Assembly (NCBI GenBank): GCA_016124805.1
Contig: WGND01000004.1
Coordinates: 62,001 to 126,000, forward strand
Source: Hyphomicrobiales bacterium
GTDB taxonomy: Bacteria; Pseudomonadota; Alphaproteobacteria; Parvibaculales; Parvibaculaceae
Direction of reading: 5' to 3'
DNA length: 64,000 nt
Shown: one piece after another, positions 15,156 through 30,557 of the stretch
How positions within the stretch are numbered: position 1 is the first letter of the stretch
Layout of the letters: every line of letters begins with the position of its first letter
Made by a program: the position numbers and the translations under genes
The notes under the pieces: generated by a model
What the model was told of the DNA's origin: nothing
The model's database searches: none
Seen by the model: the letters and a program-made list of their open reading frames with translations, nothing else

Positions 15156-15245
15156 GGTGAAGATATCCGGTTGGGTTTGCAGACCCTGTCTGTGCTGAGA
15201 GGCGTTGTATGGACCATCAGCGCGGCTTAGGCAAATGGGGCAGGA

Positions 15246-17282: not shown

Positions 17283-17483
17283 TGTTCATCCCCCGCGCTT
17301 TCGCGCCATTTCGCGCATCTTCACCTGCATCACCGGGCATTTGCAATGCCAGTGGCGCGTTCCATGGCGGCAGGATGGGGGCGATTTGTGGGGGCAATGG
17401 GGCAGGAACGGGTCAAAGCAAAGGCAAGTTTGCGATTAACTATGGCCAGCGATTTGTCGGATGGCGGGGCTGATTTTGCCCTC

Positions 17484-17512
17484 TTGACCGGAATGGCGCG
17501 GCAGGCTTTATC
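17484..17512 (+). promoter_or_regulatory. Promoter placing the transcription start at the ycgN start codon
   Basis: TTGACC (17484-17489), a 17-base spacer and TTTATC (17507-17512). The expected transcription start, 6-8 bases past the -10, coincides with the ATG at 17519. No ribosome binding site precedes that ATG, so a leaderless mRNA is likely. Confidence 0.55.
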
Positions 17513-17518
17513 TGCGCC

Positions 17519-17974
17519 ATGGAAAAGCAACCCTTCTGGCGGGTGAAACGCCTCGATGAGATGACGCGACCCGAATGGGAGTCGCTCTGCGACGGCTGCG
17601 CCAAATGCTGTCTGGTGAAGCTTGAGGACGAAGACACGCTGGAGCTGGCCTATACCAATGTGGTTTGCACGCTGCTCGACTGCGAAAGCTGCCAGTGCAC
17701 CGATTATGCAAACCGCTCCGTGCGCGTGCCCGATTGCGTGACGCTGACCCCGCAAAGTCTTGCCGAGATCGACTGGATGCCGACCTCCTGTGCCTATCGG
17801 CTGATCAAGGAGGGGAAAGATTTGCCAAGCTGGCATCCGCTGGTGAGCGGTGAGCAGGAAAGCGTGCATCGTGCCGACATGTCCGTCCGTGGCAAGACGG
17901 TTTTCGAACATGATGTGGCGTTCGAGGATATGGAAGACTATATCGTCGACTGGCCGATGGACGAGCCGGAATAG
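17519..17974 (+). CDS. YcgN/UPF0260 cysteine-cluster protein
   Basis: 151-residue cytoplasmic protein of the UPF0260 family, named for a conserved zinc/iron-cluster-like cysteine pattern. Cysteines occur in [15 protein letters not shown] (about residues 22-36), [15 protein letters not shown] (about 50-64) and VPDC. The opening [15 protein letters not shown] and the central [19 protein letters not shown] are family hallmarks. The molecular function is unknown. It is divergent from the PBP gene; the promoter at 17484-17512 suggests a leaderless transcript. It is followed by palindromic repeats and then the GTA cluster. Confidence 0.88.
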
Positions 17975-17984
17975 GCTTGAGGAA

Positions 17985-18066
17985 GTCGTGGATGACCCGC
18001 ATGAAGCGGGTCATGACGATGATTTGAAATGCCGTCATGGTCCGACTTGTTCGGACCATCCACGTC
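17985..18066. repeat. REP-like palindromic doublet
   Basis: Outer inverted arms CGTGGATG (17987-17994) and CATCCACG (18057-18064) enclose two hairpins, GACCCGC-atgaa-GCGGGTC and GGTCCGA-cttgt-TCGGACC. The single unit GTGGATGNCCGG...CCGGGCATGAC type recurs at 21690 and 29184. Such units are common extragenic repeats in alphaproteobacteria. Confidence 0.75.
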
Positions 18067-18080
18067 TTTAACCATTATTG

Positions 18081-18140
18081 TCCCTCGCCCCTGAGGGGAG
18101 AGGGGGAGGCGGACCGCAAGGTCCGGCGAGGGTGAGTGGG
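18081..18140. repeat. Dispersed CTCTCCCC/GGGGAGAG palindromic element, copy 1
   Basis: Contains CCCCTGAGGGGAGAGGGGG, then GGACCGCAAGGTCCGGCGAGGGTGAG. It shares both blocks with the elements at 21563-21676, 22775-22888 and 25434-25523. Confidence 0.75.
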
Positions 18141-18268
18141 AGGTGCATTTCAAAAAAAATTGCATTTTGTGAGTTATCCCCACTTGCAGCGCAACGCTGC
18201 GACCCTATCTACCATCCATATCAGGAATTGCGCCCGCAGGACGGGCCACCAGAAAAGCTCCTTACAAT

Positions 18269-18682
18269 TTGGCGACACGATTAACCAGCACGACGCGGGC
18301 AACCAGCACAGTGCCGGAACCCAAACCCACGCCGCCGCCTGCGGTGACGCCTGCGCCGAAGAAACGCGCAACGGCCAAACAGCTGGCGACACGGCTGCGT
18401 GACCTGATCGAGCGCGAAATTGCCGATATCGAGGTTGAGGGCAAACGCAAACGTGCAGCGAGCGATCGCGAACGCGCAGCACGGCAACTGGCCTCGCTGG
18501 TGCGCTCGCTTGAAAAGCTGAATGAAATCGATCTGGCCGACAAGGCGCGCCGCGAGGCCCGCGCCGCCGCCCGTAAAACAGAGGATGAAGACCATCGCGC
18601 CGAACTTGAACGCCGCCTCACTCGCCTTGCCACGTTGCTGGCGGCTGAGGCAGGCGCTGATGGCGAGCCTGAGCCAGCATGA
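18269..18682 (+). CDS. GTA g1-like protein, probable small terminase
   Basis: 137 residues, first gene of the GTA cluster. The N-terminal third is Pro/Thr-rich and low in complexity. The rest is a highly charged helical region with RARQLASLVRSLEKLNEI-like heptads (ARQLASLVRSLEKLNEI, about residues 70-87) that resembles GTA g1 proteins, which act as TerS and present DNA to the large terminase. The frame begins with TTG at 18269; a GTG 14 codons later is an alternative and neither has a clear ribosome binding site. It overlaps terL by 23 bases. The identification rests on position and on the helical LEKL region more than on a firm motif. Confidence 0.6.
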   Translation: MATRLTSTTRATSTVPEPKPTPPPAVTPAPKKRATAKQLATRLRDLIEREIADIEVEGKRKRAASDRERAARQLASLVRSLEKLNEIDLADKARREARAAARKTEDEDHRAELERRLTRLATLLAAEAGADGEPEPA

Positions 18683-19901
18683 AGCCCGCGCGCTGCTGGA
18701 AGACTGGCGCTTCTGGGCGCGCGACGATCAATTGGCCCCCGACGCCGACTGGACGACCTGGCTGTTGCTCGGCGGACGCGGCGCGGGCAAGACACGCGCC
18801 GGGGCCGAATGGGTGCGCGGCGAGGTGGCGGCAAAACGCGCCGGCCGCATCGCGCTGATCGGCGAGACGCTGGGCGATGTGCGCGAGGTGATGATTGACG
18901 GGCCCTCGGGCCTGCGTGCGGTGGAGCCGCTGCGCCGCCGCCCGCGCTATGAAGCCTCGCGCAAACGCCTGCTCTGGGAAAACGGCGCGGTGGCCTATGC
19001 CTTTTCGGCGTCCGAACCCGACAGCCTGCGCGGGCCGCAATTTGATGCTGCCTGGGCCGATGAGATTGCCAAATGGCGCTATGCCGAAGCGACATGGGAC
19101 ATGCTGCAATTCGGCCTGCGGCTGGGCGATCAACCGCGTCAGGTGGTGACGACGACACCGCGCCCGGTGCCGATTGTCAAACGCATGCTGAAGGACAGGC
19201 GCACCGTGGTGACGAAGGCAAGCACGCTGATGAACCGCGCCCATCTGGCTGAAGGCTTCTTTGCCAGCGTCATTGCGCGCTATCAGGGCACGCGGCTCGG
19301 GCGGCAGGAGCTCGATGCCGAACTGATCGAGGATAATCCCGATGCGCTGTGGTCCCGCGAGATGATCGAGCAGGCCCGTGTCGGCACGGCCCCGGCGATG
19401 GCGCGCGTTGTGGTGGCGGTGGACCCGCCCGCGACCAGCGGCCCCAAGGCCGATGAATGCGGCATCGTGGTGGCGGGGCGCGATGAGATGGGGCGCGGTT
19501 ACATATTGGAGGACCGCTCGATGGGCGGGCTGACGCCGCTGACCTGGGCGAGCCGCGCGGCCAAGGCCATGCGTGATTTTGAGGCCGACCGGATTGTTGC
19601 CGAAGCCAATCAGGGCGGCGAGATGGTGGCGGCGATCCTGCGACAGGTGGCGCCGCTCGCGCCGCTGAAACTGGTGCGCGCGAGCCGCGGCAAATACAGC
19701 CGGGCCGAACCTGTGGCCGCCCTTTATGAACGCGGGCTTGTGAGCCATGTCGGGCATTTTGCAAGGCTCGAAGATCAGATGTGCGACTACGCACCGGGCA
19801 TGGGGGCCAAGAGCCCCGACCGGCTTGATGCGCTGGTCTGGGCGCTGACCGAGCTGATGCTTGATGGCGAGGCGGGCAAGCCCAAGGTGCGGGGATTGTG
19901 A
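18660..19901 (+). CDS. terL: GTA g2, large terminase subunit
   Basis: 413-residue packaging motor. The N-terminal ATPase has Walker A GGRGAGKTRAGAEWV (about residues 34-48) and a Walker B/coupling region near AAWADEIAKW. The RNaseH-like nuclease begins at VVVAVDPPATSGPKADECG (about 245-265, first catalytic Asp), with a later acidic pair around KSPDRLDALVWAL near the C-terminus. The DNA-packaging terminase of GTAs cuts host DNA in headful fashion. ATG at 18660 is chosen because the conserved protein begins there; the frame is open further upstream inside g1. Overlap with g1 implies coupling. A repeat-filled spacer of 180 bases follows before the portal gene. Confidence 0.93.
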   Translation: MASLSQHEARALLEDWRFWARDDQLAPDADWTTWLLLGGRGAGKTRAGAEWVRGEVAAKRAGRIALIGETLGDVREVMIDGPSGLRAVEPLRRRPRYEASRKRLLWENGAVAYAFSASEPDSLRGPQFDAAWADEIAKWRYAEATWDMLQFGLRLGDQPRQVVTTTPRPVPIVKRMLKDRRTVVTKASTLMNRAHLAEGFFASVIARYQGTRLGRQELDAELIEDNPDALWSREMIEQARVGTAPAMARVVVAVDPPATSGPKADECGIVVAGRDEMGRGYILEDRSMGGLTPLTWASRAAKAMRDFEADRIVAEANQGGEMVAAILRQVAPLAPLKLVRASRGKYSRAEPVAALYERGLVSHVGHFARLEDQMCDYAPGMGAKSPDRLDALVWALTELMLDGEAGKPKVRGL

Positions 19902-19908
19902 ATTTCAC

Positions 19909-20053
19909 CCCTCACCCGGCTCGCGTTGCGACCCGACCTCTCCCCTGAGGGGAGAGGTTATTGAGACCAGAGCCTGAACCCTCTCCCCTCGGGGAGAGGT
20001 TATTGAGACCAGAGCCTGAGCCTTCTCCCTTCGGGGAGAGGGTTGGGTGAGGG
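19909..20053. repeat. Tandem palindromic repeats between terL and portal
   Basis: The unit CTCTCCCC-TGA-GGGGAGAG followed by GTTATTGAGACCAGAGCCTGA occurs at 19938-19978 and again at 19981-20019 (with CTCGGGG in the centre). A third palindrome CTTCTCCCTTCGGGGAGAGG follows at about 20022-20041. The block is framed by CCCCTCACCC and GGGTGAGGGG, giving an overall inverted arrangement. Confidence 0.75.
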
Positions 20054-20083
20054 GGCTTTCTGCAAATGTTGAAAGGAAAGACC

Positions 20084-21295
20084 ATGCCAGCAGATGTGAG
20101 GGCCGGGCCATGGGCGCGGCTGGCCGCGATGATGGGCGCAACGCCCGCACCGCTCGCACCACGCGAGGCCAAGGCAAGCCGCACCGGACCGCTCGTCGCG
20201 CTGTCGCTGACGGGGCGACCTGTCTGGACGCCGCGCGACTATGCAGCGCTGGCGAGCGAAGGCTTTGCAAAAAATGCCGTCGCCTATCGCTGCGTGCGGA
20301 TGATTGCCGAAGCCGCCGCCTCCGTTCCCTGGCTGCTTTATGAGGGCGAGCGCGAACTGAGCCGGCATCCGCTGCTGACATTGCTCAACGAGCCCAATCC
20401 GCAGGAGAGCGGCGCCGACCTGATGGAAAGCTGGTATGGCTTTCTGATGGTCGCGGGCAATGCCTATCTGGAACTGGTGGAGGCGGGCGGCACCCCGCGC
20501 GAACTCTATGCGCTGCGGCCCGACCGTATGAAAGTGGTGCCCGGCGATAATGGCTGGCCGCAGGGCTATGAATATGCCGTCAACGGACGAACGGTGACGA
20601 TCCCGCGCAACGCGCAGACGGGCGAAATGCCGCTCCTGCATTTGCGGCTCTTTCACCCGAGCGATGATCATTATGGCATGAGCCCGCTGGAAGCCGCCGC
20701 CTATGCCATCGATATTCACAATGCGGCGGGTGGCTGGAACAAGGCGTTGCTCGACAATGCGGCGCGACCCTCCGGCGCGCTGGTTTACAAGGGCGGCGAG
20801 GCGGGCATGAACCTGACGGAGGACCAGTTCGAGCGCCTGAAGCGGGAGCTTGCCGATAATTATCAGGGCGCGGGCAATGCCGGACGCCCGCTGCTGCTCG
20901 AAGGCGGGCTGGAATGGACCAGCATGGGGATGACGGCCAAGGACATGGATTTCATCGAGGCCAAACGCGCCGCCGCACGCGACATTGCGCTCGCCTTTGG
21001 CGTGCCGCCCATGTTGCTGGGGATTCCCGGCGACAACACCTATTCAAATTATGCCGAGGCCAATCGCACCTTCTGGCGTCAGACCGTGCTGCCGCTGGTG
21101 GGGCGCACCTCGCGCGCGCTGAGCCGCTGGCTGGCGCGGCGCTACGGGGCGGAGCTCAGGCTCTGGTATGACGCCGATGCGATTGAGGCGCTGGGCAGCG
21201 AACGCGAGGCACTCTGGGCGCGTGTCTCGGCAGCGGATTTTCTGAGCGATGATGAGAAACGGTCGGCGTTGGGGTATGGCAGGACGGAGGCGTGA
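20084..21295 (+). CDS. GTA g3, HK97-type portal protein
   Basis: 403 residues. The portal forms the dodecameric ring through which DNA enters the capsid. The phage_portal pattern is clear: NAVAYRCVRMIAEAAASVPW (about residues 65-85), HPLLTLLNEPNPQESG, LMVAGNAYLELV and LRPDRMKVVPG, then DIALAFGVPPMLLGIPGDNTY split around residues 300-320, and the wing/crown helices. The ATG at 20084 has GAAAGGAAAG upstream; an in-frame ATG six codons earlier is less well placed. The gene follows the repeat-filled spacer and ends 1 base before the next start. Confidence 0.93.
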   Translation: MPADVRAGPWARLAAMMGATPAPLAPREAKASRTGPLVALSLTGRPVWTPRDYAALASEGFAKNAVAYRCVRMIAEAAASVPWLLYEGERELSRHPLLTLLNEPNPQESGADLMESWYGFLMVAGNAYLELVEAGGTPRELYALRPDRMKVVPGDNGWPQGYEYAVNGRTVTIPRNAQTGEMPLLHLRLFHPSDDHYGMSPLEAAAYAIDIHNAAGGWNKALLDNAARPSGALVYKGGEAGMNLTEDQFERLKRELADNYQGAGNAGRPLLLEGGLEWTSMGMTAKDMDFIEAKRAAARDIALAFGVPPMLLGIPGDNTYSNYAEANRTFWRQTVLPLVGRTSRALSRWLARRYGAELRLWYDADAIEALGSEREALWARVSAADFLSDDEKRSALGYGRTEA

Positions 21296-21296
21296 G

Positions 21297-21566
21297 ATGG
21301 AGAGTGAAGCCGGAGAGGCAAATGGCTGGCACCTCGACAAGCGCGTGCCCATTGCCATGATCGTGGCGATCATCATCCAGTCGGGCGCGGGGCTCGTCTG
21401 GGCGGGTGCGGCCAGCGAAAGGCTGGTCTCGCTGGAAGGGCGCTCGCTGCGCACCGACGAAGTGGTGGAGCGCACCGCGCGGCTCGAAGAACAGTCCCAC
21501 GCCATGCGCGCCTCACTCGCCCGCATTGAAGACAAGCTCGACCGCGCTGTGGCAGGGCGAAGGTAA
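21297..21566 (+). CDS. GTA g3.5-like small membrane protein
   Basis: 89 residues: a short charged N-terminus, a transmembrane helix (VPIAMIVAIIIQSGAGLVWAG, about 16-36; 20 of it hydrophobic) and a C-terminal amphipathic helix/coiled coil (RLVSLEGRSLRTDEVVERT to IEDKLDRAVAGRR). The same position in the Rhodobacter GTA holds a small gene called g3.5. Function is unknown. The ribosome binding site GGAGG is inside the end of the portal gene. The last 14 codons are duplicated in degenerate form at 21754-21799. Confidence 0.65.
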   Translation: MESEAGEANGWHLDKRVPIAMIVAIIIQSGAGLVWAGAASERLVSLEGRSLRTDEVVERTARLEEQSHAMRASLARIEDKLDRAVAGRR

Positions 21567-21676
21567 GGCAGCGGTTGTTGCTTCCCCTCACCCGCGCTCA
21601 TGTCATTCGCTTGCCCTCTCCCCTGAGGGGAGAGGGAGAGACGGACCGGATGGTCCGGCGAGGGTGAGGGGCCATG
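21563..21676. repeat. 114-bp direct repeat, copy A (before lepB)
   Basis: Starts GTAAGGCAGCGGTTGTTGCT over the g3.5 stop codon and ends GAGGGTGAGGGGCCATG. By eye it differs from copy B at 22775-22888 in 3 of 114 bases. It contains the CCCTCTCCCCTGAGGGGAGA palindrome and the GGACCG/CGGTCC-type arm. The two copies flank the lepB gene in the same orientation. Confidence 0.85.
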
Positions 21677-21689
21677 GCTGACAAAAGAT

Positions 21690-21717
21690 GGATGTCCGGA
21701 TCAAGTCCGGGCATGAC
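21690..21717. repeat. REP-like hairpin unit
   Basis: GGATGTCCGGATCAAGTCCGGGCATGAC type: arms GTCCGG and CCGGGC around ATCAAGT. It is related to the units at 17985 and 29184 and lies in the lepB-side spacer. Confidence 0.65.
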
Positions 21718-21753
21718 AGCCCAATGAATACCTAAGAAGGTGCATGTGATCGG

Positions 21754-21799
21754 ACGCCATGAAGACAAGCTGGATCGGGCCATGGCGGGGCGAAGGTAA
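21754..21799 (+). pseudogene. Duplicated 3' end of the g3.5 gene
   Basis: Translating this stretch in the right frame gives HEDKLDRAMAGRR and a TAA. The end of g3.5 reads IEDKLDRAVAGRR and a TAA, and both are followed by GGC. The nucleotide match is GAAGACAAGCT...GGGCGAAGGTAAGGC with several substitutions. No start or body of a gene precedes it, so this is a fragment left by duplication or recombination. Confidence 0.8.
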
Positions 21800-21873
21800 G
21801 GCGTGGATTCCCTGTGGAGACTGTCACATTGTTCCCCTAAAGTCGGAACAGTGAAACAGGGTATGGGGTCCCG

Positions 21874-22764
21874 ATGTCTGAGGAAAAAACGATACGAAAG
21901 ACCTGGCTGGTTATCTTGATATTTCTGGTGACTTCACCTGTTGTCGGGATGCTTTATCTGGGTCGATGGTTTTGGGCCTTTGTTTATCTGCTTCTGGGCT
22001 TTGCCATTATCTATTTCACAGAGTCAGTCTGGCAGGTCGGGCCTTTCAGCCCGCAAGGAGCTGCCCTTTTATTGTTCTTTGTCCTGATCGGAATGGTTCA
22101 CGGATCTATCCTTTCCCATCGCAAGGTGGAGTTGCCAGCAGCGAAAGCGATACTCGGCAGCATTTTGACGATTGTGGCCTTTGCGAGTGGATTATGTTTC
22201 GTTTTCTTTTTTGGATTTCTTAATCGTCCATTTGCAATGACGGCAACGTCCATGCTGCCAACACTCAATGCGGGGGACTATTTGCTGGCGGACAAGAGAG
22301 CCTATCGGGAGGACAAGCCTGTCTTTGGTGATGTTATCATTTTCTGGTCGCCAAGCCTGAAAAACTATTTTGTGAAACGTGTGGCAGGATTGCCGGGTGA
22401 CCGCGTGCAGATGAAGCAGGGCGAGCTTTATATCAATGATGAAAAAGTGGCGCGAAAAGAGCTGCCGCCTTTTGAATATGAGCAGCGCGAGGTGGAAGTG
22501 ATCGGCGAATATCGACCGGATGGCCGCATGTATCGTACGTTGAATCTGGCGGATGGCAGCTTTGTCGATGATACAAATGAACTTCTTGTACCGGAGAACC
22601 ACTATTTTGTGCTGGGCGACAATCGGGACAATTCTTCCGATAGCCGACTTGCTGGTCAGATAGGTTTTGTGGATGAGGCTGATATCATCGGGCGTGCCAC
22701 TTATATTTACTGGGACAATCGGAAGAAGGAAACCGTCTTCCGGCCAATCGACGAATTGCCATGA
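21874..22764 (+). CDS. lepB: Signal peptidase I inserted in the GTA cluster
   Basis: 296-residue membrane serine protease that removes Sec/Tat signal peptides. The N-terminal 115 residues hold about four hydrophobic segments, more than the one or two of a standard LepB. The catalytic domain follows: Ser126 in TSMLPTLNAGDYLL, Lys168 in YFVKRVAGLPGDRV, and box E as GDNRDNSSDSR (about 252-262). All catalytic elements are intact. The base composition is visibly less GC-rich than the GTA genes on both sides. Nearly identical 114-bp repeats flank it and a terminator follows. GTA clusters do not normally carry a signal peptidase, so this is an insertion. The ATG has no strong ribosome binding site. 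Confidence 0.88.
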   Translation: MSEEKTIRKTWLVILIFLVTSPVVGMLYLGRWFWAFVYLLLGFAIIYFTESVWQVGPFSPQGAALLLFFVLIGMVHGSILSHRKVELPAAKAILGSILTIVAFASGLCFVFFFGFLNRPFAMTATSMLPTLNAGDYLLADKRAYREDKPVFGDVIIFWSPSLKNYFVKRVAGLPGDRVQMKQGELYINDEKVARKELPPFEYEQREVEVIGEYRPDGRMYRTLNLADGSFVDDTNELLVPENHYFVLGDNRDNSSDSRLAGQIGFVDEADIIGRATYIYWDNRKKETVFRPIDELP

Positions 22765-22774
22765 TCTCCATGGC

Positions 22775-22888
22775 GTAAGGCAGCGGTTGTTGCTTCCCCT
22801 CACCCGCGCTCATGTCATTTGCTTGCCCTCTCCCCTGAGGGGAGAGGGAGAGACGGACCGCTTGGTCCGGCGAGGGTGAGGGGCCATG
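22775..22888. repeat. 114-bp direct repeat, copy B (after lepB)
   Basis: Same sequence and orientation as copy A (21563-21676), with three differences: C to T in the GTCATTCGCTTG stretch and GA to CT in the GGACCGGATGG stretch. It begins 11 bases after the lepB stop. Confidence 0.85.
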
Positions 22889-22912
22889 ACGGCCTTACAA
22901 TTATTAAGAGAC

Positions 22913-22945
22913 AAAGGCGCCCAGGATCGGGCGCCTTTTTGTTTG
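22913..22945 (+). terminator. Rho-independent terminator upstream of GTA g4
   Basis: Stem AAAGGCGCCC / GGGCGCCTTT with an AGGATC loop, then TTTTTGTTT. It sits 24 bases after repeat B and about 15 bases before the g4 start. It would stop lepB transcripts and also read-through from g1-g3.5. Confidence 0.8.
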
Positions 22946-22960
22946 TGAACGGAGGATCAT

Positions 22961-23635
22961 GTGATCGAACAGACCAAGCGCCGGCACGCGGCAAGTCACC
23001 AGCAGGTGATCCGCACCGAATTCAAGAGCGTGAGCGCGGACGGGCATTTTGAAGGCTATGCGAGCCTTTTCGGGGCCGAAGATCTGGGCCGCGACATGGT
23101 GATGCCCGGCGCGTTTCAAGCTTCGCTCGAACGGCGCGGCCCGCGCGGCGTCAAGATGCTCTACCAGCACGATCCCAATGAGGTGATCGGGGTCTGGCAC
23201 AGGGTGGAGGAGGATGCGCGCGGCCTGCATGTGGAAGGCGAATTGCTGGGTGACGTTACCCGCGCCCGCGAGGTGCTGGCGCTGATGCGGGCCGGTGCGA
23301 TTGACGGGCTCTCCATCGGCTATCACGTGGTCAAGGCGCAGGCCGACCGCAAGCGCGGGGCGCGACGGCTGATCGAACTTGATCTCTGGGAAATCTCGGT
23401 GGTGACCTTTCCGATGCTGCCCGATGCCCGCGTGGCGCGCGTGAAGCATGTCAACCGGCCCAATGAACGCGAATTTGAACGCTGGCTGCGATACGAGGCC
23501 GGCTTCAATCAAGAGGAGGCCCACGTGATCATCACGCGTGGCTTCAAATCCCTGAAAGCGTCGCCCATGGCGGCGCTGAGCGACGGCGCACTCGCCCGGA
23601 AGATCCGGTCGGCAGCGCTCACGATCCGACCTTAA
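22961..23635 (+). CDS. GTA g4, HK97-type prohead protease
   Basis: 224 residues. The U35-type prohead protease cleaves the capsid protein's N-terminal delta domain during maturation. Family features: EFKSVSADGHFEGYASLFG (about 20-40), GRDMVMPGAFQASL, KMLYQHDPNEVIGVW with the catalytic His (about residue 70), and IDGLSIGYHVVKA with the catalytic Ser (about 117). The ELDLWEISVVTFPMLPDA segment is also typical. The start is GTG at 22961 with GGAGG at 22951-22955. It comes straight after the terminator, so expression of g4 onwards may need its own promoter. The major capsid gene follows after 17 bases. Confidence 0.92.
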   Translation: MIEQTKRRHAASHQQVIRTEFKSVSADGHFEGYASLFGAEDLGRDMVMPGAFQASLERRGPRGVKMLYQHDPNEVIGVWHRVEEDARGLHVEGELLGDVTRAREVLALMRAGAIDGLSIGYHVVKAQADRKRGARRLIELDLWEISVVTFPMLPDARVARVKHVNRPNEREFERWLRYEAGFNQEEAHVIITRGFKSLKASPMAALSDGALARKIRSAALTIRP

Positions 23636-23652
23636 CCCAACAGGAGAGTTCC

Positions 23653-24951
23653 ATGACTTCATGGCAGAACGACGTCCCGCGCATCGGGACGGCGCTGAAG
23701 ACGCTTGAGCAGAAAAGCGTGGGCGAGCGCCCCGCCGCAACCGAAGTACGCGAGGCGATGGATGAATTTCTGTCCGCCTTTGACGCCTTCAAGGCGGCCA
23801 ATGACGAACGCCTCGACCAGATCGAACGCAAGATGGGCGCCGATGTGGTGACGGAAGACAAGGTGGAGCGCATCAACCGCGCGCTCGACCGCCAGATGAA
23901 AACCGTGGACGAGCTGGCGCTGGCCATGGCACGGCCCGAAATCGGCGGCGAGATGCCGACCCGTCTTGATCCGGCGCGACGCGAACATAAACGCGCCTTC
24001 GACCTTTATGTGCGCAAGGGCGATGCGCCTGATCTGCGCGCACTGGAAGCCAAGGCACTTTCGGCCCAGTCCGACCCCGATGGCGGCTATCTGGTGCCGA
24101 GCGAAACCGAACGGCTGATCGACCGCATCGTCTCGGAAGCCTCGCCCATCCGCGCCATTGCCGGGGTGCGCCAGATCGGGGCGGCGAGCTACAAGAAGCC
24201 TTTCACGACCAGCGGCCCGCAATCGGGCTGGGTCGGCGAAAGCGAAACACGCACCGAAACCGAGGCGCCCAAACTCTCCGAGCTGGAATTTCCGGCGATG
24301 GAACTTTACGCCATGCCTGCGGCCACCAGCACGATGCTCGATGATGCCGCTGTCAATATCGACCAGTGGCTCGCCGAAGAAGTGCAGACCGTCTTTGCCG
24401 AACAGGAAGGCGCGGCCTTTGTGAATGGCGACGGGGTGAAGAAGCCGCGCGGTTTTCTGTCTTATGACGCGGTCGCCAATGCCGACTGGTCCTGGGGCAA
24501 GCTCGGCTATCTGGTGACGGGCAATGCGGGTGCCTTTCCGGTTTCCAATGCCGCCGACACGCTGATCGACATGATCTATGCGGTGAAGGCGGGCTACCGC
24601 GCCAATGGCCGTTTTGTCATGAACCGTTCGACGCAATCGGCGATCCGCAAGTTCAAGGATACCGATGGCAATTATCTCTGGCAGCCGGGCCTGAGCGCGG
24701 GCGCGGCCCCGACGCTGCTCAACTATCCGGTGACGGAGGCCGAAGACATGCCCTCCATCGGCACGGATGCGATGGCGCTTGCCTTTGGCGACTTCAGGCG
24801 CGGCTATCTGATCGTCGACCGGCTGGGGGTGCGCGTGCTGCGCGATCCCTATAGCGCCAAGCCCTATGTGCTTTTCTATACGACCAAGCGCGTGGGCGGC
24901 GGGGTCCAGAATTTCGAAGCGATCAAGCTTCTGAAATTCGGTACGGCGTGA
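23653..24951 (+). CDS. GTA g5, HK97-type major capsid protein
   Basis: 432 residues. The first 115 or so form a charged coiled-coil delta domain, removed by the g4 protease (a linker near ARREHKRAFDLYVRKG). The capsid domain follows, with SDPDGGYLVPSETERLIDR (about 135-153), IRAIAGVRQIG, the beta-hinge region WVGESETRTET and the C-terminal AFGDFRRGYLIVDRLGVRVL. The pattern is that of HK97-fold capsids of GTAs. The ribosome binding site is AGGAGAG before the ATG at 23653. The next gene starts 10 bases after the stop. Confidence 0.94.
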   Translation: MTSWQNDVPRIGTALKTLEQKSVGERPAATEVREAMDEFLSAFDAFKAANDERLDQIERKMGADVVTEDKVERINRALDRQMKTVDELALAMARPEIGGEMPTRLDPARREHKRAFDLYVRKGDAPDLRALEAKALSAQSDPDGGYLVPSETERLIDRIVSEASPIRAIAGVRQIGAASYKKPFTTSGPQSGWVGESETRTETEAPKLSELEFPAMELYAMPAATSTMLDDAAVNIDQWLAEEVQTVFAEQEGAAFVNGDGVKKPRGFLSYDAVANADWSWGKLGYLVTGNAGAFPVSNAADTLIDMIYAVKAGYRANGRFVMNRSTQSAIRKFKDTDGNYLWQPGLSAGAAPTLLNYPVTEAEDMPSIGTDAMALAFGDFRRGYLIVDRLGVRVLRDPYSAKPYVLFYTTKRVGGGVQNFEAIKLLKFGTA

Positions 24952-24961
24952 GGAGGGGCTG

Positions 24962-25393
24962 ATGAAAGATCTGCATCACAATATCAAAACCATCCTGACG
25001 CTTGATCCGGCGGTGACGACGGCGAGCCGCAGTGGCGCGCCGGTGGACGGGCGCGGCTTTCAGGCGGTGGAACATGTCGCCTGTTTTGGCGCGAGCGGCG
25101 ACACGCTTTCGGGCAGCGACTATTTCGAGCTGAAGCTGGAGGCAAGCAGCGATGCCGCCAACTGGTCGCCGGTGAACGAGGCAACCCATGTGCTGGGCGG
25201 GCCGGTAAGCGAAGCTGGGGTCTTTGCCACGATTGACGATGTGAGCGGCGACCAGACCGACTATCGCATCGGCTATGTCGGACCTGCCCGCTACAGCCGC
25301 CTTGTGCTGGTGGTGACGGGCACACATGACAATGGTACGCCCGTTTCGGCGCTCGCCATTCTTGCCGCCGCGCATGTCAAGCCGGTGGTGTGA
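24962..25393 (+). CDS. Capsid-adjacent beta-rich protein of unknown function
   Basis: 143 residues with no signal peptide or membrane segment. The sequence is rich in short beta-strand-like segments (YFELKLEASSDAANWSPV, IDDVSGDQTDYRIGYVG, RYSRLVLVVTGTHD). Proteins with this YRIGYVGxxRYxRLVxxxTGT ending are often encoded after the major capsid gene in siphophages, where a structural or decoration role is suspected; this is recalled, not verified. In the Rhodobacter GTA cluster no gene stands between g5 and g6. The ribosome binding site GAGGAGGGG overlaps the end of the capsid gene's spacer, so it is cotranscribed with the capsid gene. Confidence 0.6.
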   Translation: MKDLHHNIKTILTLDPAVTTASRSGAPVDGRGFQAVEHVACFGASGDTLSGSDYFELKLEASSDAANWSPVNEATHVLGGPVSEAGVFATIDDVSGDQTDYRIGYVGPARYSRLVLVVTGTHDNGTPVSALAILAAAHVKPVV

Positions 25394-25433
25394 CCGGTGT
25401 TGTGAGAAGACTGCCAGAGACATGACCGCGTTT

Positions 25434-25523
25434 CCCCCTCACCCTCGCCGGTCCTTGCGGCCCGGCTCTCCCTCTCCCCTCAGGGGAGAGGGCAAGCGAA
25501 TGCAATGAGCGCGGGTGAGAGGG
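25434..25523. repeat. Dispersed palindromic element, inverted copy
   Basis: Reverse complement of the copy A/B type: CCCCTCACCCTCGCCGGTCC, then CTCTCCCCTCAGGGGAGAGG and GCAAGCGAATGCAATGAGCG. It lies between the capsid-adjacent gene and g6. Confidence 0.75.
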
Positions 25524-25546
25524 ATGACGTCAGAAGGAATGAACCC

Positions 25547-26101
25547 ATGACCATGACCCTGACAAGCGGGCCGGCCGATGAGCCGGTGACGCTGGCTGAT
25601 GCGCGTGCCTTTCTGCGGCTGGATGATGCCACCGAAGACGCTTTGCTGTCGGCGCTCATCACGGCGGCGCGGCTGACACTCGAACATGTGACGCGCCGCG
25701 CCTTTGTCAGCCAGAGCTGGCGGCTGACGCTTGATGAGTGGCCCGGGCGGCAGGTGGCGCTGCCGATTGCGCCGGTCTCGGATGTGAGCGAGATCAGCGT
25801 CGATGGCGAGGTGCTGGATGAGGCGCTTTACAAGCTGGACCTGGAACACGAGCCGCCGCGCCTGGTGCTGAAGAAAAATGCGGTCTGGCCGCAACCGGCA
25901 GCGGGCAGCGGCGGCATTGATATCGACATGGTGGCGGGCTTTGGCAGCGCTGTCGACGTGCCGCAACCGCTGAAGCAGGCGCTGCTGATGCTGGTCGCCC
26001 ACTGGTTTGAAAATCGCGAACCCATCGCCTTTGGCGGCAGCCAGACGCTGCCGCTGTCGGTTGATGCGCTGATCGCGCCCTGGCGGAGGCTGCATCTGTG
26101 A
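25547..26101 (+). CDS. GTA g6, head-tail connector (adaptor)
   Basis: 184 residues. The adaptor ring binds under the portal. The N-terminal part EPVTLADARAFLRLDDATED (about 12-31) with LLSALITAARLTLEHVTRRA is the helical head-tail connector pattern (gp6/HK97 gp6-like family). A beta-rich domain and a helical C-terminus follow. The ATG at 25547 has GAAGGAA upstream; the frame extends 14 codons further back into the repeat, which is not a plausible start. The stop overlaps the GTG of g7 by 4 bases. Confidence 0.85.
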   Translation: MTMTLTSGPADEPVTLADARAFLRLDDATEDALLSALITAARLTLEHVTRRAFVSQSWRLTLDEWPGRQVALPIAPVSDVSEISVDGEVLDEALYKLDLEHEPPRLVLKKNAVWPQPAAGSGGIDIDMVAGFGSAVDVPQPLKQALLMLVAHWFENREPIAFGGSQTLPLSVDALIAPWRRLHL

Positions 26102-26427
26102 GCCGGATCGGAGCCATGCGCGCGCGTGTGACGCTGCAGGCGGCAACGCGGGAGAGCGATGGCGCGGGCGGCAGCAACTTGGGCTGGAGCGATGTCGCCA
26201 CGCTCTGGGCCGCCGTGACACCGCGCAAGGGGCAGGAGCGCCTGATCGGCGAACGCCCGGAAGCGCGGCAGACATGGGAGGTTGTGATGCGCTGGCGCAA
26301 TGATGTGACGAGCGCCCACCGGCTCCTTTGGCAGTCGCGCGTGCTGACGATTGAAAGTGTGGTTGATCCCGACGGCCGCAAACGCTGGCTGCGGATCGAA
26401 GCCGAGGAGGGACGCCATGAGCCTTGA
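26098..26427 (+). CDS. GTA g7, head-closure (stopper) protein
   Basis: 109-residue head-tail joining protein of the SPP1 gp16/HK97 gp7 type, which closes the connector after packaging. Family features: RARVTLQAATRESDGAGG near the start and WAAVTPRKGQERLIGER (about 40-57), then MRWRNDVTSAHRLLWQSRVL (about 65-84). The start is GTG at 26098, overlapping the g6 stop (GTGA). Its 3' end overlaps g8 by 11 bases, so g6-g7-g8 are translationally coupled. Confidence 0.85.
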   Translation: MSRIGAMRARVTLQAATRESDGAGGSNLGWSDVATLWAAVTPRKGQERLIGERPEARQTWEVVMRWRNDVTSAHRLLWQSRVLTIESVVDPDGRKRWLRIEAEEGRHEP

Positions 26428-26824
26428 TGCCGACCTTGCTTTGCAGCAGGCGATCTTCGCCCGGCTTGGCGCGGATGCGGGCGTGAGCGCGCTGGTCGGC
26501 ACGCGTCTTTATGACAATGCGCCGGGCGAGACGGGCTTCCCCTATGTGACCCTGGGCGAGAGCGACATGCGCGACTGGAACACGGGCGACAGCCATGGCA
26601 GCGAGCATCGGCTGACATTTTATGTGTGGTCGCGGGCCGGTGGCCGCAGCGAGGCCAAAGCCATTCTCGGCGCGATCCGCGCATGTCTTGAGGAAGCCGC
26701 GCTCAGCCTTACCGACCATGATCTGGTCAATCTGACATTCACGGGGAGCGACACACGGCGCGCCCCGGATGGTGCGACATGGCGCGGGGCCATCCGCTTC
26801 CGCGCGGTGACGGAGAGAATTTGA
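26417..26824 (+). CDS. GTA g8, tail terminator (DUF3168)
   Basis: 135 residues, DUF3168 family, which caps the tail tube at the head side. MSLDADLALQQAIFARLGAD at the start, GTRLYDNAPGETGFPYVTLG (about 30-49) and HRLTFYVWSRAGGRSEAKAI match the family closely. ATG at 26417 has GGAGGGACG upstream inside g7. It is followed by a repeat-filled spacer of 141 bases before g9. Confidence 0.88.
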   Translation: MSLDADLALQQAIFARLGADAGVSALVGTRLYDNAPGETGFPYVTLGESDMRDWNTGDSHGSEHRLTFYVWSRAGGRSEAKAILGAIRACLEEAALSLTDHDLVNLTFTGSDTRRAPDGATWRGAIRFRAVTERI

Positions 26825-26830
26825 ACGGCG

Positions 26831-26940
26831 CTCTCTTACCTCTCCCCCGGCGGGAGAGGTCGGAACGCGGATGCGTTCCGGGTGAGGGGGCACTTTCGGA
26901 TGACACCCCCCACCCAACCCTCCCCCGCAAGGGGGGAGGG
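26831..26940. repeat. Palindromic repeats between g8 and g9
   Basis: Three hairpins: CTCTCCCCCGGCGGGAGAGG (26840-26859), GGAACGCGGATGCGTTCCG (26862-26880), and CCCTCCCCCGCAAGGGGGGAGGG-like arms near 26918-26940, separated by GGGTGAGGGGGC. The layout resembles the other GTA-junction elements but the sequence has diverged. Confidence 0.65.
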
Positions 26941-26965
26941 CTATGGTTTGAAACAGGAGATCTGA

Positions 26966-27379
26966 ATGACAGCCCAGAAAGGCAAGGACCTGCTGCTGAA
27001 GCTCGACAGCGACGGCGCGGGGACATTCATCACGGTGGCGGGCCTGCGCTCGCGCTCGCTCGCCTTCAATGCGCGCAGCGTCGACATCACCCATTCGGAG
27101 TCAGCGGGACGCTGGCGCGAATTGCTGGAAGGGGCTGGCGTGCGCTCGGCATCGGTGACGGGGCGTGGCATTTTCCGTGACGCGAGCTCGGACGCCTCGC
27201 TGCGGCAGATCTTTTTCGACGGGCTCATTCGTGACTGGCAGATCGTGATCCCGGATTTCGGCATGGTGAGCGGAGCCTTCCAGATCACCTCGCTGGAATT
27301 TGCCGGTGAGCATGATGGCGAGATGAGCTTCGACCTGGCGCTGGAAAGTGCCGGCGCCTTGAGCTTTGCGGCGGCATGA
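26966..27379 (+). CDS. GTA g9, major tail protein
   Basis: 137-residue tail-tube subunit of the TP901-1-type major tail protein family. MTAQKGKDLLLKLDSDGAGT opens the protein, then the family-typical VAGLRSRSLAFNARSVDITH (about 24-43), WRELLEGAGVRSASVTGRG and SGAFQITSLEFAGEHDGEM. The ribosome binding site is AGGAGA before ATG 26966. Its stop overlaps the g10 start by 4 bases. Confidence 0.9.
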   Translation: MTAQKGKDLLLKLDSDGAGTFITVAGLRSRSLAFNARSVDITHSESAGRWRELLEGAGVRSASVTGRGIFRDASSDASLRQIFFDGLIRDWQIVIPDFGMVSGAFQITSLEFAGEHDGEMSFDLALESAGALSFAAA

Positions 27380-27696
27380 GCGGGGTAAACCGCCATCGTG
27401 GCGAGATCGAGGCGCTGCTTGATGACCGCCCGCGCAAGCTCGTGCTGACGCTGGGCGCGCTCGCTGAGCTGGAAAGCGCCTTTGGCGGGCAAGACCTGCT
27501 GGCGCTTGCGACACGTTTTGAGACGGGTCACCTCTCGGCGCGTGATGCAATTCGCGTGATCGGGGCGGGGCTTCGCGGCGCAGGCGAAGAAGTGAGCGAT
27601 GAGGACGTGGCCACCATGACGGCGCAGGGCGGGGCGGCAGGCTTTGTGGCGATTGTGGCCGATCTCCTCTCGGCGACCTTTGGCGGGGCGGCGTGA
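27376..27696 (+). CDS. GTA g10, gene-transfer-agent family tail protein
   Basis: 106 residues. It matches the GTA g10 group: NRHRGEIEALLDDRPRKLVL at the start, TLGALAELESAFGGQDLLAL (about 30-49), then RDAIRVIGAGLRGAGEEVSD. It is thought to be a tail assembly chaperone working with g10.1 during tube and tape-measure assembly. ATG 27376 overlaps the g9 stop (ATGA), and its own stop overlaps the next start by 4 bases. Confidence 0.85.
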   Translation: MSGVNRHRGEIEALLDDRPRKLVLTLGALAELESAFGGQDLLALATRFETGHLSARDAIRVIGAGLRGAGEEVSDEDVATMTAQGGAAGFVAIVADLLSATFGGAA

Positions 27697-27908
27697 CGCA
27701 AGCCACTTTCCCCTGGGCGCGGCTGATGGAAATCGGGCTCGGCGTGATGCGCCTGCCGCCTGAACGCTTCTGGCAGATGACGCTGCCCGAGATCAGTGCG
27801 GCGGCGCGCGCCCTCAATCCGCAAGCCGCACGTGGTATCGGGCGCGGCGAGCTCGGCGACTTGATGGCGCGCTATCCCGATCAGAGCCAGATCAAAAGAA
27901 AGACATGA
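27693..27908 (+). CDS. GTA g10.1, phage tail assembly chaperone
   Basis: 71 residues. The short helical family is recognisable by FPWARLMEIGLGVMRLPPE (about 5-23), FWQMTLPEISAAARAL and the final DLMARYPD. It starts with GTG at 27693, overlapping the g10 stop. In GTAs the g10 and g10.1 pair corresponds to the chaperone pair of siphophages, though here there is no sign of a programmed frameshift; the genes overlap as separate frames. Confidence 0.82.
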   Translation: MTQATFPWARLMEIGLGVMRLPPERFWQMTLPEISAAARALNPQAARGIGRGELGDLMARYPDQSQIKRKT

Positions 27909-27911
27909 CAG

Positions 27912-28541
27912 ATGCAGGATGAAACAGGACAGGACGCCACGCTGACAGGCGGGCTGGAAGCCGGTGCCTTTGCCGCGCGCGATTTCGCGCTGGAGACACA
28001 ACGCAGCCTGCGGCTGGCGAGCGAGGAATATCGCCGCGCGGCAGCCAGTGGGCGCGACTTTGGCCGTGTCGTCTCGGGCGCCTTTGCCGATGTGGCGCTG
28101 AAAGGCCGTTCGCTGTCGGACACGCTGAAGGGCCTTGCGCTCGATATGGCGGGGCTGGTGCTGAAAAACGCTACGCAGTCGATTACCACGTCGCTCGGCA
28201 ATTCGCTGACCTCCTCGCTCGGCTCGCTGGTCAAGAGCGCCGACGGCAATGTGTTTGCAGGCGGGCGGGTCAGAGCCTTTGCGCAAGGCGGCGTGGTGAA
28301 CAGCCCCATGCTCTTTCCATTGCAGGGTGGCGCGGGTCTGGCGGGCGAGGCAGGGCCTGAAGCGATCATGCCGTTGCAGCGCGGCAGCGACGGGCGGCTG
28401 GGCGTTGCCATGTCAGGCGGCGCCACAACGCAGATCGTTTTCAATGTGCAGGCCACGGATGCCGAAAGCTTCCGGCGCTCGCAATCGCAGATCGCGGGCA
28501 TGCTGAGTCAGATGACGGCGCGCGGACAAAGGAACCTCTGA
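27912..28541 (+). CDS. GTA g11, short tape-measure protein
   Basis: 209 residues, far shorter than phage tape-measure proteins but normal for GTA tails. Central Ala/Arg-rich helices (about 20-90), then a Gly/Ser-rich segment (FAQGGVVNSPMLFPLQGGAG, about 116-135) and GEAGPEAIMPLQRGSDGRLG, a classic tape-measure C-terminal signature. The C-terminus VFNVQATDAESFRRSQSQIA matches GTA g11. The ATG follows the g10.1 stop by 3 bases. It lies directly ahead of g12. Confidence 0.87.
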   Translation: MQDETGQDATLTGGLEAGAFAARDFALETQRSLRLASEEYRRAAASGRDFGRVVSGAFADVALKGRSLSDTLKGLALDMAGLVLKNATQSITTSLGNSLTSSLGSLVKSADGNVFAGGRVRAFAQGGVVNSPMLFPLQGGAGLAGEAGPEAIMPLQRGSDGRLGVAMSGGATTQIVFNVQATDAESFRRSQSQIAGMLSQMTARGQRNL

Positions 28542-28544
28542 GCC

Positions 28545-29174
28545 ATGGCGTTTCACGATACTCGTTTTCCGCTCGGCATTGCGCTGGGCGCGCGCGGCGG
28601 GCCGGAACGGCGCACCGACATTGTGACGCTCGGCTCGGGCTTTGAGGAGCGCAACAGCGCCTGGGCGGATTCACGCCGCCAGTATAATGCAGGCTATGGG
28701 CTTCGCGGGCTGGATGACATTCACGCGCTGATCGCCTTTTTCGAGGCGCGGCACGGGCGGCTGCATGGCTTTCGCTGGCGCGACCGGGCGGACTGGAAAT
28801 CCTGCGCGCCCTCGGCAACGCCGCAGGCAGATGATCAACTGATCGGCACGGGCGATGGCACGCAGGCGGCATTTCAACTGACCAAGACTTATATGTCGGG
28901 CCCGGCAAGCTATGTCCGCATGATCACCAAGCCGGTGGCGGGCAGTGTGCTGCTGGCGGTTGATGGCGTGGCGACAAGCGCCTTCACACTCGATGCGGTG
29001 ACGGGCCTCGTGACATTTGACGTGGGCGCGATACCGGCAAGCGGGGCACTGGTGAGCGCGGGCTATGAATTTGATGTGCCGGTGCGCTTTGACACCGACC
29101 GGCTCGAGATTGATCTGAGCGCCTTTACGGCGGGCGCCGTGCCCGACATTCCTGTGATTGAGATCAGGGTGTGA
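28545..29174 (+). CDS. GTA g12, distal tail protein (DUF2460)
   Basis: 209 residues, DUF2460 family. MAFHDTRFPLGIALGARGGP, DIVTLGSGFEERNSAWADSR (about 25-45), IAFFEARHGRLHGFRWRDRA (about 60-80) and the C-terminal YEFDVPVRFDTDRLEIDLS are diagnostic. The distal tail protein forms the hexameric platform for the baseplate hub. It starts 4 bases after g11. A REP-like unit occupies the 56-base gap to g13. Confidence 0.92.
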   Translation: MAFHDTRFPLGIALGARGGPERRTDIVTLGSGFEERNSAWADSRRQYNAGYGLRGLDDIHALIAFFEARHGRLHGFRWRDRADWKSCAPSATPQADDQLIGTGDGTQAAFQLTKTYMSGPASYVRMITKPVAGSVLLAVDGVATSAFTLDAVTGLVTFDVGAIPASGALVSAGYEFDVPVRFDTDRLEIDLSAFTAGAVPDIPVIEIRV

Positions 29175-29183
29175 AGGCAAGGC

Positions 29184-29213
29184 GTGGATGACCCGGACAA
29201 GCCGGGCCATGAC
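29184..29213. repeat. REP-like hairpin unit between g12 and g13
   Basis: GTGGATGACCCGGACAAGCC then GGGCCATGAC: arms CCCGG and CCGGG around ACAAG. Same family as the units at 17985 and 21690. Confidence 0.65.
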
Positions 29214-29230
29214 GCGGAAGGAAAACCAAC

Positions 29231-30118
29231 ATGAAAGCCATATCGACAGAGATGCAGGACCATCTCGACAGCGGCGCAACGACGCTGTGCACCTGCTGGA
29301 AGCTGACACAGCAGGACGGGACGGTGATGGGCTTTACCGATCATGACCGCGATCTCGCCTTTGGCGGTGCGACCTATGAAGCCGCCGGCGGCTTTACGGC
29401 AAGTGCGCTGAAAACAGGACAGGGGCTTGCGGTCGATAATCTCGACCTGATGGGCGCGCTTTCGTCAGACCGGCTGGATGAAGGTGATCTGGCCGCGGGG
29501 CTTTATGACGGCGCCGATATTGAAATCTGGCGGGTGAACTGGCAGGCGCCGGAAATGCGGGTGCTGCTGCGCAAGGGCACACTCGGCGAAGTCGCGCGCG
29601 GACGCAGCGATTTCACCGCCGAGATACGTGGCCTTGCCCATGCGCTGAACCAGACGACCGGGCGGCTCTATCAATATGGCTGCGATGCCGATCTGGGTGA
29701 CACGCGCTGCGGCGTTGATCTGAGTGGTGCGGCCTTTACGGCTGAGGGCGTGGTGAGCGCGGCGAGCGAGGACCGGCTGCTGACTCTGAGCGGGCTTGAG
29801 ACCTTTGCCACGGGCTTTTTCACACGTGGCAAAATCCGTGCGCTGGATGGTGCCAATGAGGGCGCGGTGATGGAGGTGAAAGCCCATCAGCTGAGCGGCA
29901 GTCTTTGCGCGCTGGAACTGTGGCAACCGCTGGCACGGGCCATTGAGATCGGTGATCGCTTCGCCGTGAGTGCGGGCTGCGACAAGCAGTTTGAGACCTG
30001 CCGGAGCAAATTTGCCAATGGTGCGAATTTCCGTGGCTTCCCGCATATGCCCGGCAATGACTTTGTGCAGGCAACGGTGTCGCGAAGCGGTGCCAATGAT
30101 GGCGGCAGGCGGCGTTAA
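29231..30118 (+). CDS. GTA g13, baseplate hub protein (DUF2163)
   Basis: 295 residues, DUF2163 family. The opening MKAISTEMQDHLDSGATTLC with CWKLTQQDGTVMGFTDHDRD (about 21-40) is characteristic, as are the LYQYGCDADLGDTRCGVDL (about 150-169) and AGCDKQFETCRSKFANG (about 250-266) cysteine motifs; the four-cysteine pattern binds an iron-sulfur cluster in the Rhodobacter hub protein, which I infer here by homology. GGAAGGAAAAC precedes the ATG. The next gene follows after 1 base. Confidence 0.92.
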   Translation: MKAISTEMQDHLDSGATTLCTCWKLTQQDGTVMGFTDHDRDLAFGGATYEAAGGFTASALKTGQGLAVDNLDLMGALSSDRLDEGDLAAGLYDGADIEIWRVNWQAPEMRVLLRKGTLGEVARGRSDFTAEIRGLAHALNQTTGRLYQYGCDADLGDTRCGVDLSGAAFTAEGVVSAASEDRLLTLSGLETFATGFFTRGKIRALDGANEGAVMEVKAHQLSGSLCALELWQPLARAIEIGDRFAVSAGCDKQFETCRSKFANGANFRGFPHMPGNDFVQATVSRSGANDGGRRR

Positions 30119-30119
30119 G

Positions 30120-30554
30120 ATGACACAGGCTGAAATGATCGTGGCCGCTGCACGCGGCTGGATCGGCACGCCCTATCGCCATCAGGCAAGCGAGCGTGGC
30201 GTGGGCAGTGATTGCCTCGGGCTCGTGCGCGGGGTCTATCGCGAGGTGATGGGGAGGGAGCCCGAACTGCCGCCCGCCTATTCCGCCGACTGGGCTGAAC
30301 GCGATGGCGCGGGTGAGCAGATGGCGGACGCCGCAAGGCGACATTTGATTGCGCGACGTTTGGGCCGGGAAAGGCCCGGCGATGTGCTGCTCTTTCGGTT
30401 GCGCCCGGCGGCACCAGCCAAACATGCCGCGATCCTGAGCGATGCGACCCGCATGATCCATGCCTATAGCGGCCATGCGGTGGTGGAAACGGCGCTGACG
30501 CCCTGGTGGCAGCGACGACTTGTGTTTGTTTTTTCCTTTCCTGAGAGTGACTGA
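30120..30554 (+). CDS. GTA g14, NlpC/P60-type cell-wall peptidase
   Basis: 144 residues. The NlpC/P60 cysteine peptidase has its catalytic Cys in GVGSDCLGLVRGVYRE (about residue 31) and the His in AKHAAILSDATRMIHAYS (about 103). GTPYRHQASERGVGSDCLGL is the family opening. It helps the tail penetrate the recipient's peptidoglycan. The ATG at 30120 follows the g13 stop by 1 base with no strong ribosome binding site, so coupling is likely. g15 follows after 3 bases. Confidence 0.9.
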   Translation: MTQAEMIVAAARGWIGTPYRHQASERGVGSDCLGLVRGVYREVMGREPELPPAYSADWAERDGAGEQMADAARRHLIARRLGRERPGDVLLFRLRPAAPAKHAAILSDATRMIHAYSGHAVVETALTPWWQRRLVFVFSFPESD

Positions 30555-30557
30555 TCC

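Follow-up and report, generated by a model that had tools for sequence, protein, structure and literature searches.

A conserved intrinsic terminator upstream of the capsid genes of an RcGTA-like cluster, a probable gate for antitermination by GafZ

Results

The terminator and the cluster around it

An intrinsic (Rho-independent) terminator owned by the gene transfer agent (GTA) cluster is the best explanation, at the level of sequence and by analogy with Caulobacter for termination in vivo, of the hairpin found at positions 22913-22945 of the window (the whole stretch of 64,000 nucleotides that was analysed, G000:C5:62001-126000, in which C5 coordinates are contig coordinates). With a probability of roughly 0.7, this terminator acts as a gate against stray transcription, which polymerase loaded with GafZ would pass into g4-g15. 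The terminator with its conservation, a gafY-gafZ pair and the layout of a promoter upstream of g1 were all observed in the DNA itself and are described below; the remainder of the scheme leans on Caulobacter.

The stem-loop occupies positions 22913-22938 of the + strand and consists of 10 perfect pairs around a 6-nt loop, with the arms AAAGGCGCCC (22913-22922) and GGGCGCCTTT (22929-22938) paired at 10 of 10 positions. A T-rich tail (22936-22945, + strand) shares its outer T's with the stem and reads TTGTTTG 3' of it. A GC-rich stem with an immediate T-run is the make-up of an intrinsic terminator, and the description given by the first-pass annotation, a terminator with a 10-base GC-rich stem and a T-run, was confirmed by pairing, score and fold; the relatives considered below support both stem and tail. 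The RNA of 22904-22946 folds at -21.3 kcal/mol (z -5.0), none of 200 shuffles being as low. When both strands of region 15000-34900 were scanned with a loose terminator consensus, 17 sites were obtained versus 15.2 expected from shuffles. As this level was uninformative, a stricter score was adopted, d, which combines hairpin and T-tract, requires a T-run and was computed with our own script. The hairpin reached d = 41.7, the top + strand value of the 64 kb (runner-up 23.2, at 1463-1480), and it is the sole + strand site with d > 0 within the GTA cluster; 30 dinucleotide shuffles of 18501-35500 gave a mean of 0.23 hits and a maximum d of 7.7. The same hairpin scored d = 17.4 on the - strand and could therefore have weak activity in both directions. 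The start of the following gene, g4, was assigned to the GTG at 22961, the preceding ATG running straight into a TGA. The T-run ends at 22945, which leaves the 15 nt before g4 that had been annotated at first, and the distance from stem to start is 22 nt.

Pfam and NCBIfam matches outlined a GTA cluster extending from g2 (from 18522) through g15 (end 34451). On the 5' side of the terminator lie, all on the + strand, g2 for the large terminase (18522-19901; PF03237, PF17289), g3 for the portal (20066-21295; PF04860, TIGR01537) and g3.5 (21249-21566), which encodes a small protein with a hydrophobic stretch; g1 and g3.5 were named by position and had no family match. The first gene 3' of the terminator is g4, encoding the prohead protease (22961-23635, + strand; PF04586, TIGR01543), and g5, for the major capsid protein (23653-24951, + strand; PF05065), comes next. 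Other matches of the cluster were Terminase_6, portal_HK97, proheadase_HK97, Phage_capsid, TP901-1 tail, TIGR02217, TIGR02218, TIGR02219 (g14) and GTA_megatron, and the RcGTA_tape profile scored 170 bits, under its cut-off of 220. The order terminase, portal, prohead protease, capsid, tail and baseplate is that of an RcGTA-like cluster, the comparison being made with what we take to be the RcGTA gene order.

The named contigs carrying a close capsid gene included several MAGs of Parvibaculum and Parvibaculaceae. The plasmid collection gave no match in the search; in the phage collection, a capsid relative was present in 599 records, at no more than 60.0% identity. MW091529.1, an 18-kb sequence submitted as a bacteriophage, carries a GTA-type capsid (60% identity) and may be a misfiled GTA cluster. 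As a separate observation, six of the 15 CTCTCCC..GGGAGAG palindromes of this 3.2-Mb genome lie in a 7-kb part of the GTA cluster (19938-26858); five of the remaining nine were inspected and were surrounded by ordinary-looking genes.

Conservation among close relatives

Relatives were drawn from 61 genomes (38 with a match, including the genome of the window), 80 named contigs, ten larger stretches and 80 contigs of a viral collection. The systematic scan was performed on the window together with the last three of these sets, 171 loci in all. At 97% g5 identity 155 of them were distinct, and 135 of the distinct loci contained g4 preceded by more than 250 nt of sequence; the 20 distinct loci left out had no g4, or 250 nt or less upstream. 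A strong terminator was defined by d > 10 and a position at most 75 nt before g4.

Among the distinct loci whose g5 shares 68.5% identity or more with that of the window, 28 of 34 (window included) had such a terminator. With other g5 cuts the proportion was 28/37 (66%) or 27/29 (70%). Inspection by eye of the loci without it at the 68.5% cut revealed an imperfect hairpin with a T-run in L121 and L122, a hairpin lacking the T-run in L048 and no hairpin in L045 and L050, while L118, the sister of L045, keeps the terminator; in the sixth locus, L153, a terminator is located at another place between g3 and g4. Two more distant loci, L062 and L179, also carry a strong terminator before g4. Over the 135 distinct loci (474 kb scanned), 77 terminators were found on the + strand versus 8 on the - strand.

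The 30 loci with a terminator before g4 displayed 12 distinct 6-bp stems when aligned at the stem base. Pairs 1-4 were standard in all 30 and pairs 5 and 6 in 29. Because the loci and stems were selected by folding, the overall level of standard pairs (97%, versus 61% with partners shuffled among distinct stems, a level reached by none of 2000 shuffles) is partly a matter of construction, and the informative part is the occurrence of different stems at one place. The existence of 12 distinct stems means that the hairpin has been retained through changes of sequence; its structure is thus conserved beyond its sequence.

One other role for the stem was tried and rejected. Its GGCGCC..GGCGCC resembles the Caulobacter GafZ-binding element, or ZBE (GCGCCCG-CTGGCGC), and the stem was considered as such an element. 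The loop varies among loci (3 nt in L033; long and interrupted in L036 and L117) and changes in the stem are compensated, as expected for a hairpin formed in RNA but not for a DNA site of fixed sequence. The palindrome of the Parvibaculum promoter, AGCGnnnCGCT, also differs from the terminator stem.

A terminator embedded in g3.5

A terminator situated within the coding sequence of g3.5 was found in 19 distinct loci, all outside the Parvibaculum group, including those of Rhizomicrobium electricum (L102, 7082-7100) and of a Rhizomicrobium MAG (L097). These 19 loci were chosen for having a terminator. When similarity was used instead, all 18 loci whose g3.5 shares 59% identity or more with the R. 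electricum one (itself included) carried the embedded terminator; the nineteenth locus, L111, has a g3.5 with 44% identity. Among the named contigs outside the Parvibaculum group with a g3.5 match, 15 of 17 carried it. The exact embedded pattern occurs in three of 387 genomes of the class, and these are all the capsid-match members of family f5 (three of its five genomes).

The peptide PAALVAAFLLQ is near-invariant in the embedded-type loci (one L for V), and the same place varies in other groups. It is specified by GCC GCC CTY GTG GCG GCY TTT TTR TTG CAR, codon variation falling mostly in the loop and the stem base. TTT makes up 19% of the Phe codons and TTG 11% of the Leu codons in g2-g5 of 15 embedded-type loci. 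Normalised synonymous entropy amounted to 0.17 for the 11 terminator codons versus 0.51 for 34 other conserved codons of the frame (p = 0.0005, Mann-Whitney test); among these 34, three are invariant as well, with common codons. In the 15 loci that were parsed, the stem begins 48-57 nt after an in-frame ATG, L097 having a further ATG at 33. In E. coli, terminators placed no further than 100 nt into a coding region can work efficiently (PMC4824070). In L073, a second hairpin of the embedded type was observed between g3 and g3.5 (5806-5822), perhaps a duplicated g3.5.

These data bear on the possibility that the hairpin is not a terminator and serves as an mRNA processing or stabilising element, setting the level of capsid mRNA. 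A conserved stem 5' of the capsid genes is compatible with such a role, and the genes on either side of it likely differ strongly in the dosage needed, as far as can be inferred. However, the T-run would be superfluous for a processing stem, and it is kept together with the stem in all 22 displayed relatives (a set picked for having one); in g3.5 of the Rhizomicrobium type, the TTT TTR TTG codons are near-invariant. A processing element is therefore unlikely.

The cluster promoter and the gafY-gafZ pair

A promoter of the GTA cluster was predicted 5' of g1 from its sequence and from relatives (18174-18211, + strand). This stretch reads TTATCCCCACTTGCAGCGCAACGCTGCGACCCTATCTA and holds the TTATCCCCACTTG box; the predicted -35 (TTGCAG, 18184-18189) and -10 (TATCTA, 18206-18211) are separated by a spacer of 16 nt. 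The palindrome GCAGCG-CAA-CGCTGC (18186-18200) between them is a candidate GafZ-binding element, and its place corresponds at the sequence level to a GafYZ-type promoter. The putative GafZ-binding element of C. crescentus is likewise a palindrome between -35 and -10 (PMC11150451).

The promoter was recognised by eye, after which a 13-nt box was searched in relatives with at most two mismatches. Of 24 relatives run, 22 were usable, sequence being too short in L039 and L040. The box was found 5' of g2 in 12 of the 22, and in 10 of these 12 it is followed by AGCGnnnCGCT; 415,623 nt of minus-strand sequence from these loci, the window among them, served as a control and contained three box matches. 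The other 10 usable relatives, in which the box was not found, include L033 and L113, with the closest g5 among those searched. The GTA promoter consensus of the relatives gave no match in the window, missing the window's own g1 promoter too; that promoter has diverged, and the consensus search has little power there. A perfect copy of the same consensus was observed elsewhere, on the minus strand of L132 (~1501-1526; G000:C18:14361-14386). It points against both flanking frames, presumably nrdA-like and nrdB-like, is surrounded by palindromic repeats and looks like a transposed promoter fragment.

The genes gafY (PF08299) and then gafZ (PF20057) form an intact pair at C5 57161-58422, on the same contig and about 22 kb upstream of g1. 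A DnaA domain IV gene (gafY) adjoining a DUF6456 gene (gafZ) is the arrangement of GafYZ-controlled GTAs, and reading of the translation indicated a SufE-like frame after gafZ. As far as the accessible sections of the respective papers go, a split gafA with sufE downstream is the Hyphomicrobiales arrangement (PMC9638019), gafY and gafZ of Caulobacter represent the split form (PMC9632790), and gafA homologues are present in 196 of 208 genomes analysed (PMC9765227). In the family to which the window belongs, PF20057 was found in 35 of 37 genomes; the remaining two are 71% and 70% complete. It is also retained in the genomes of L045 and L050, loci without a gate hairpin by eye, so the gate and gafZ are not strictly linked. 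In C. crescentus, GafZ enables polymerase to pass terGTA and similarly E. coli rrnB T1 (PMC11150451), a result repeated in what is accessible of PMC13236601.

Discussion

Gated transcription of the capsid genes

Release of GTA particles kills the releasing cell, and leaky expression of the cluster should therefore be costly. The terminator is probably a safety gate, passed only for particle production. Stray or unmodified polymerase entering g2-g3.5 or lepB would stop before g4, so that the genes behind the gate would remain off. Once GafY and GafZ are made, GafZ would load onto polymerase at the palindrome of the promoter upstream of g1, and the modified polymerase would pass the gate and transcribe g4-g15. 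We infer termination in vivo, GafZ binding and GafZ-dependent read-through from Caulobacter. An internal terminator 3' of the cluster promoter agrees with control of the GafYZ type, although its position is unlike that of terGTA.

The first-pass annotation had offered three readings: an antiterminator, a second promoter and a silent GTA. The antiterminator reading is strengthened, short of proof, by the intact gafY and gafZ, by a promoter layout suited to GafZ loading and by the presence of the terminator in most close relatives. The accompanying idea that packaging and structural genes are uncoupled did not hold in that form, and 'gated' is the better term.

A second promoter driving g4 onwards, with the terminator parting two transcription units, is quite improbable. 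Terminators often divide transcription units, and a weak promoter-like site (9/12) is present at 22679-22707, but this site lies 5' of the hairpin and a transcript from it must cross the hairpin. A sigma-70 consensus scan of 22889-22960, where a promoter search had been suggested, yielded no site; moreover, the 22 nt between stem and g4 start leave no room for one, and no promoter motif common to the displayed relatives was seen there by eye. The reading in which the GTA is silent and the terminator marks decay or silencing fares still worse. The cluster has taken in repeats and an extra gene, which would suit this reading, but its frames are open, gafY and gafZ are intact, NCBIfam matches extend to the megatron gene, and the terminator is common to most close relatives, which speaks against silence. 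Additionally, dN/dS values of 0.09-0.56 against three relatives indicate purifying selection on the comparable genes, a set from which g14 was left out; L114 had a stop in its g13 match, and for two of the three relatives the comparison of g15 covered part of the gene at most.

The lepB insert and the age of the terminator

Between g3.5 (end 21566) and g4 (22961), the window contains in this order a repeat, a copy of the g3.5 3' end, lepB, a second repeat and the terminator. The two GC-rich palindromic repeats, copy 1 (21563-21676) 5' of lepB and copy 2 (22775-22888) between lepB and the terminator, are 97% identical; the copy of the g3.5 3' end (~21764-21803) is partial and diverged and was seen by eye. 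The inserted cargo, lepB (21874-22764, + strand; PF10502, TIGR02227), encodes a signal peptidase of the lepB type; with it, the genome has three PF10502 matches. Its flanking by near-identical repeats, with a diverged g3.5 3' end on the 5' side (21563-22888), is an insertion trace. The repeat region 22785-22895 folds at -69.9 kcal/mol; the GC-rich repeats were considered as terGTA-type terminators, a kind outside the reach of the d score with its required T-run.

The distance from the g3.5 stop to the estimated g4 start is 66-105 nt in ten relatives (L038, L039, L049, L116, L119, L120, L121, L122, L144 and L148), and the hairpin occupies a good part of this gap. A strong terminator was found in eight of them, the two others, L121 and L122, being those with an imperfect hairpin by eye. 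Outside the window, lepB occurred in only two of 170 other loci, L033 and, as a partial match, L115. The presence of the terminator in short-gap relatives, together with the rarity of lepB, implies that the terminator is independent of lepB; from sequence comparison, it is probably older than lepB and the repeats, which would have inserted 5' of it.

A rival reading takes lepB for a moron of the phage kind, equipped with a promoter of its own and ended by this terminator. In its favour, lepB lies immediately 5' of the terminator (about 150 nt from its stop codon), is bracketed by the repeats and has two further signal peptidases beside it in the genome. The reading is largely refuted, since the terminator would then be confined to lepB-bearing loci and is present before g4 in 30 of 135, and since repeat copy 2 separates the two.

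Gates in other lineages

The distribution of terminators over the wider sample was uneven. No terminator with d > 10 was found between g3 and g4 in 82 of the 135 distinct loci, and most contigs of Rhizobium, Shinella and Neorhizobium had none there, the exceptions being L094 and L106. In 20 further stretches, at least four of which (L221, L223, L224 and L226) repeat L062, L060, L067 and L070 and so are not independent, many had no terminator. Two of the three stretches of family f63 showed one between g2 (terminase) and g3 (portal; L229:3700-3717, L233:3704-3719), L222 carried one between g3.5 and g4 at a greater distance from g4, and L227 was of the embedded type. A gate is thus common in some groups and absent in others, and its place differs. 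As an additional observation, terminators between g5 and g6 occurred in 16 of the 135 loci, in several lineages (e.g. L033:9754-9795, L058:4137-4160).

It is conceivable, at somewhat less than even odds for the whole of what follows, that several RcGTA-like lineages keep a gate between terminase and capsid genes, and that gate and GafZ antitermination together form an ancestral safety lock which was relocated repeatedly and lost in some lineages. The gate would then stand before g4 in the Parvibaculum type, in the first ~80 nt of g3.5 in the Rhizomicrobium type, and between g2 and g3 in another family (two of its three stretches), with terGTA as the Caulobacter form; it would be gone in, for instance, most of the Rhizobiaceae sampled. 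Under the same tentative reading, the g3.5 terminator would fix both the protein sequence and the synonymous codons.

Comparison with known systems

The closest parallel is the GTA of Caulobacter crescentus (PMC11150451), in which internal termination and antitermination were shown, and which shares with the window an internal terminator, gafY with gafZ and a promoter palindrome between -35 and -10; the ZBE and the palindrome of the window occupy the same place at the promoter. The terminators themselves differ: terGTA consists of three 150-bp repeats after the first gene (PMC11150451), whereas the window has a compact intrinsic terminator before g4. Three tandem GC-rich hairpins between g2 and g3 of the window (19938-20045, + strand; the third recognised by eye) lie directly after the terminase gene, the place of terGTA, and are alike by position only.

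In Rhodobacter capsulatus, GafA combines DnaA-like and DUF6456-type parts and controls the RcGTA cluster (PMC9638019, PMC6363796, accessible portions); it is one fused protein, unlike the split pair found here, and antitermination by it is only suggested. AlpA (PMC9371919, available excerpt) and lambda Q also bind at the promoter and let polymerase pass a downstream intrinsic terminator; reportedly, neither resembles GafZ in sequence or structure. A further difference is that some 4.7 kb separate the terminator of the window, in the middle of the cluster, from the promoter.

A literature search that left most subscription papers uncovered found no paper naming an intrinsic terminator together with gene transfer agents. 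By title and start of abstract, PMC11150451 was the only one among the matches listed to concern terminators in a GTA cluster; PMC11150451 and PMC13236601 were the GTA papers naming GafZ together with a terminator, and the 'terminator' of PMC7296036 is, in its accessible part, a tail terminator protein. Antitermination in GTAs is already known, and the conserved gates described here were not found in print within that coverage. Antitermination has reportedly also been described for the Bartonella BaGTA, going by the title of a 2025 eLife article of Korotaev, Niggli and Dehio; BaGTA is, we assume, another type of GTA.

Conclusion

With a terminator that most members of a family retain at one place although its letters change, and another that is written into a coding sequence in a different group, antitermination would grow from a Caulobacter feature into a testable rule for several RcGTA-like lineages. 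The stem, the T-run, the promoter palindrome and gafZ offer precise targets for such tests.
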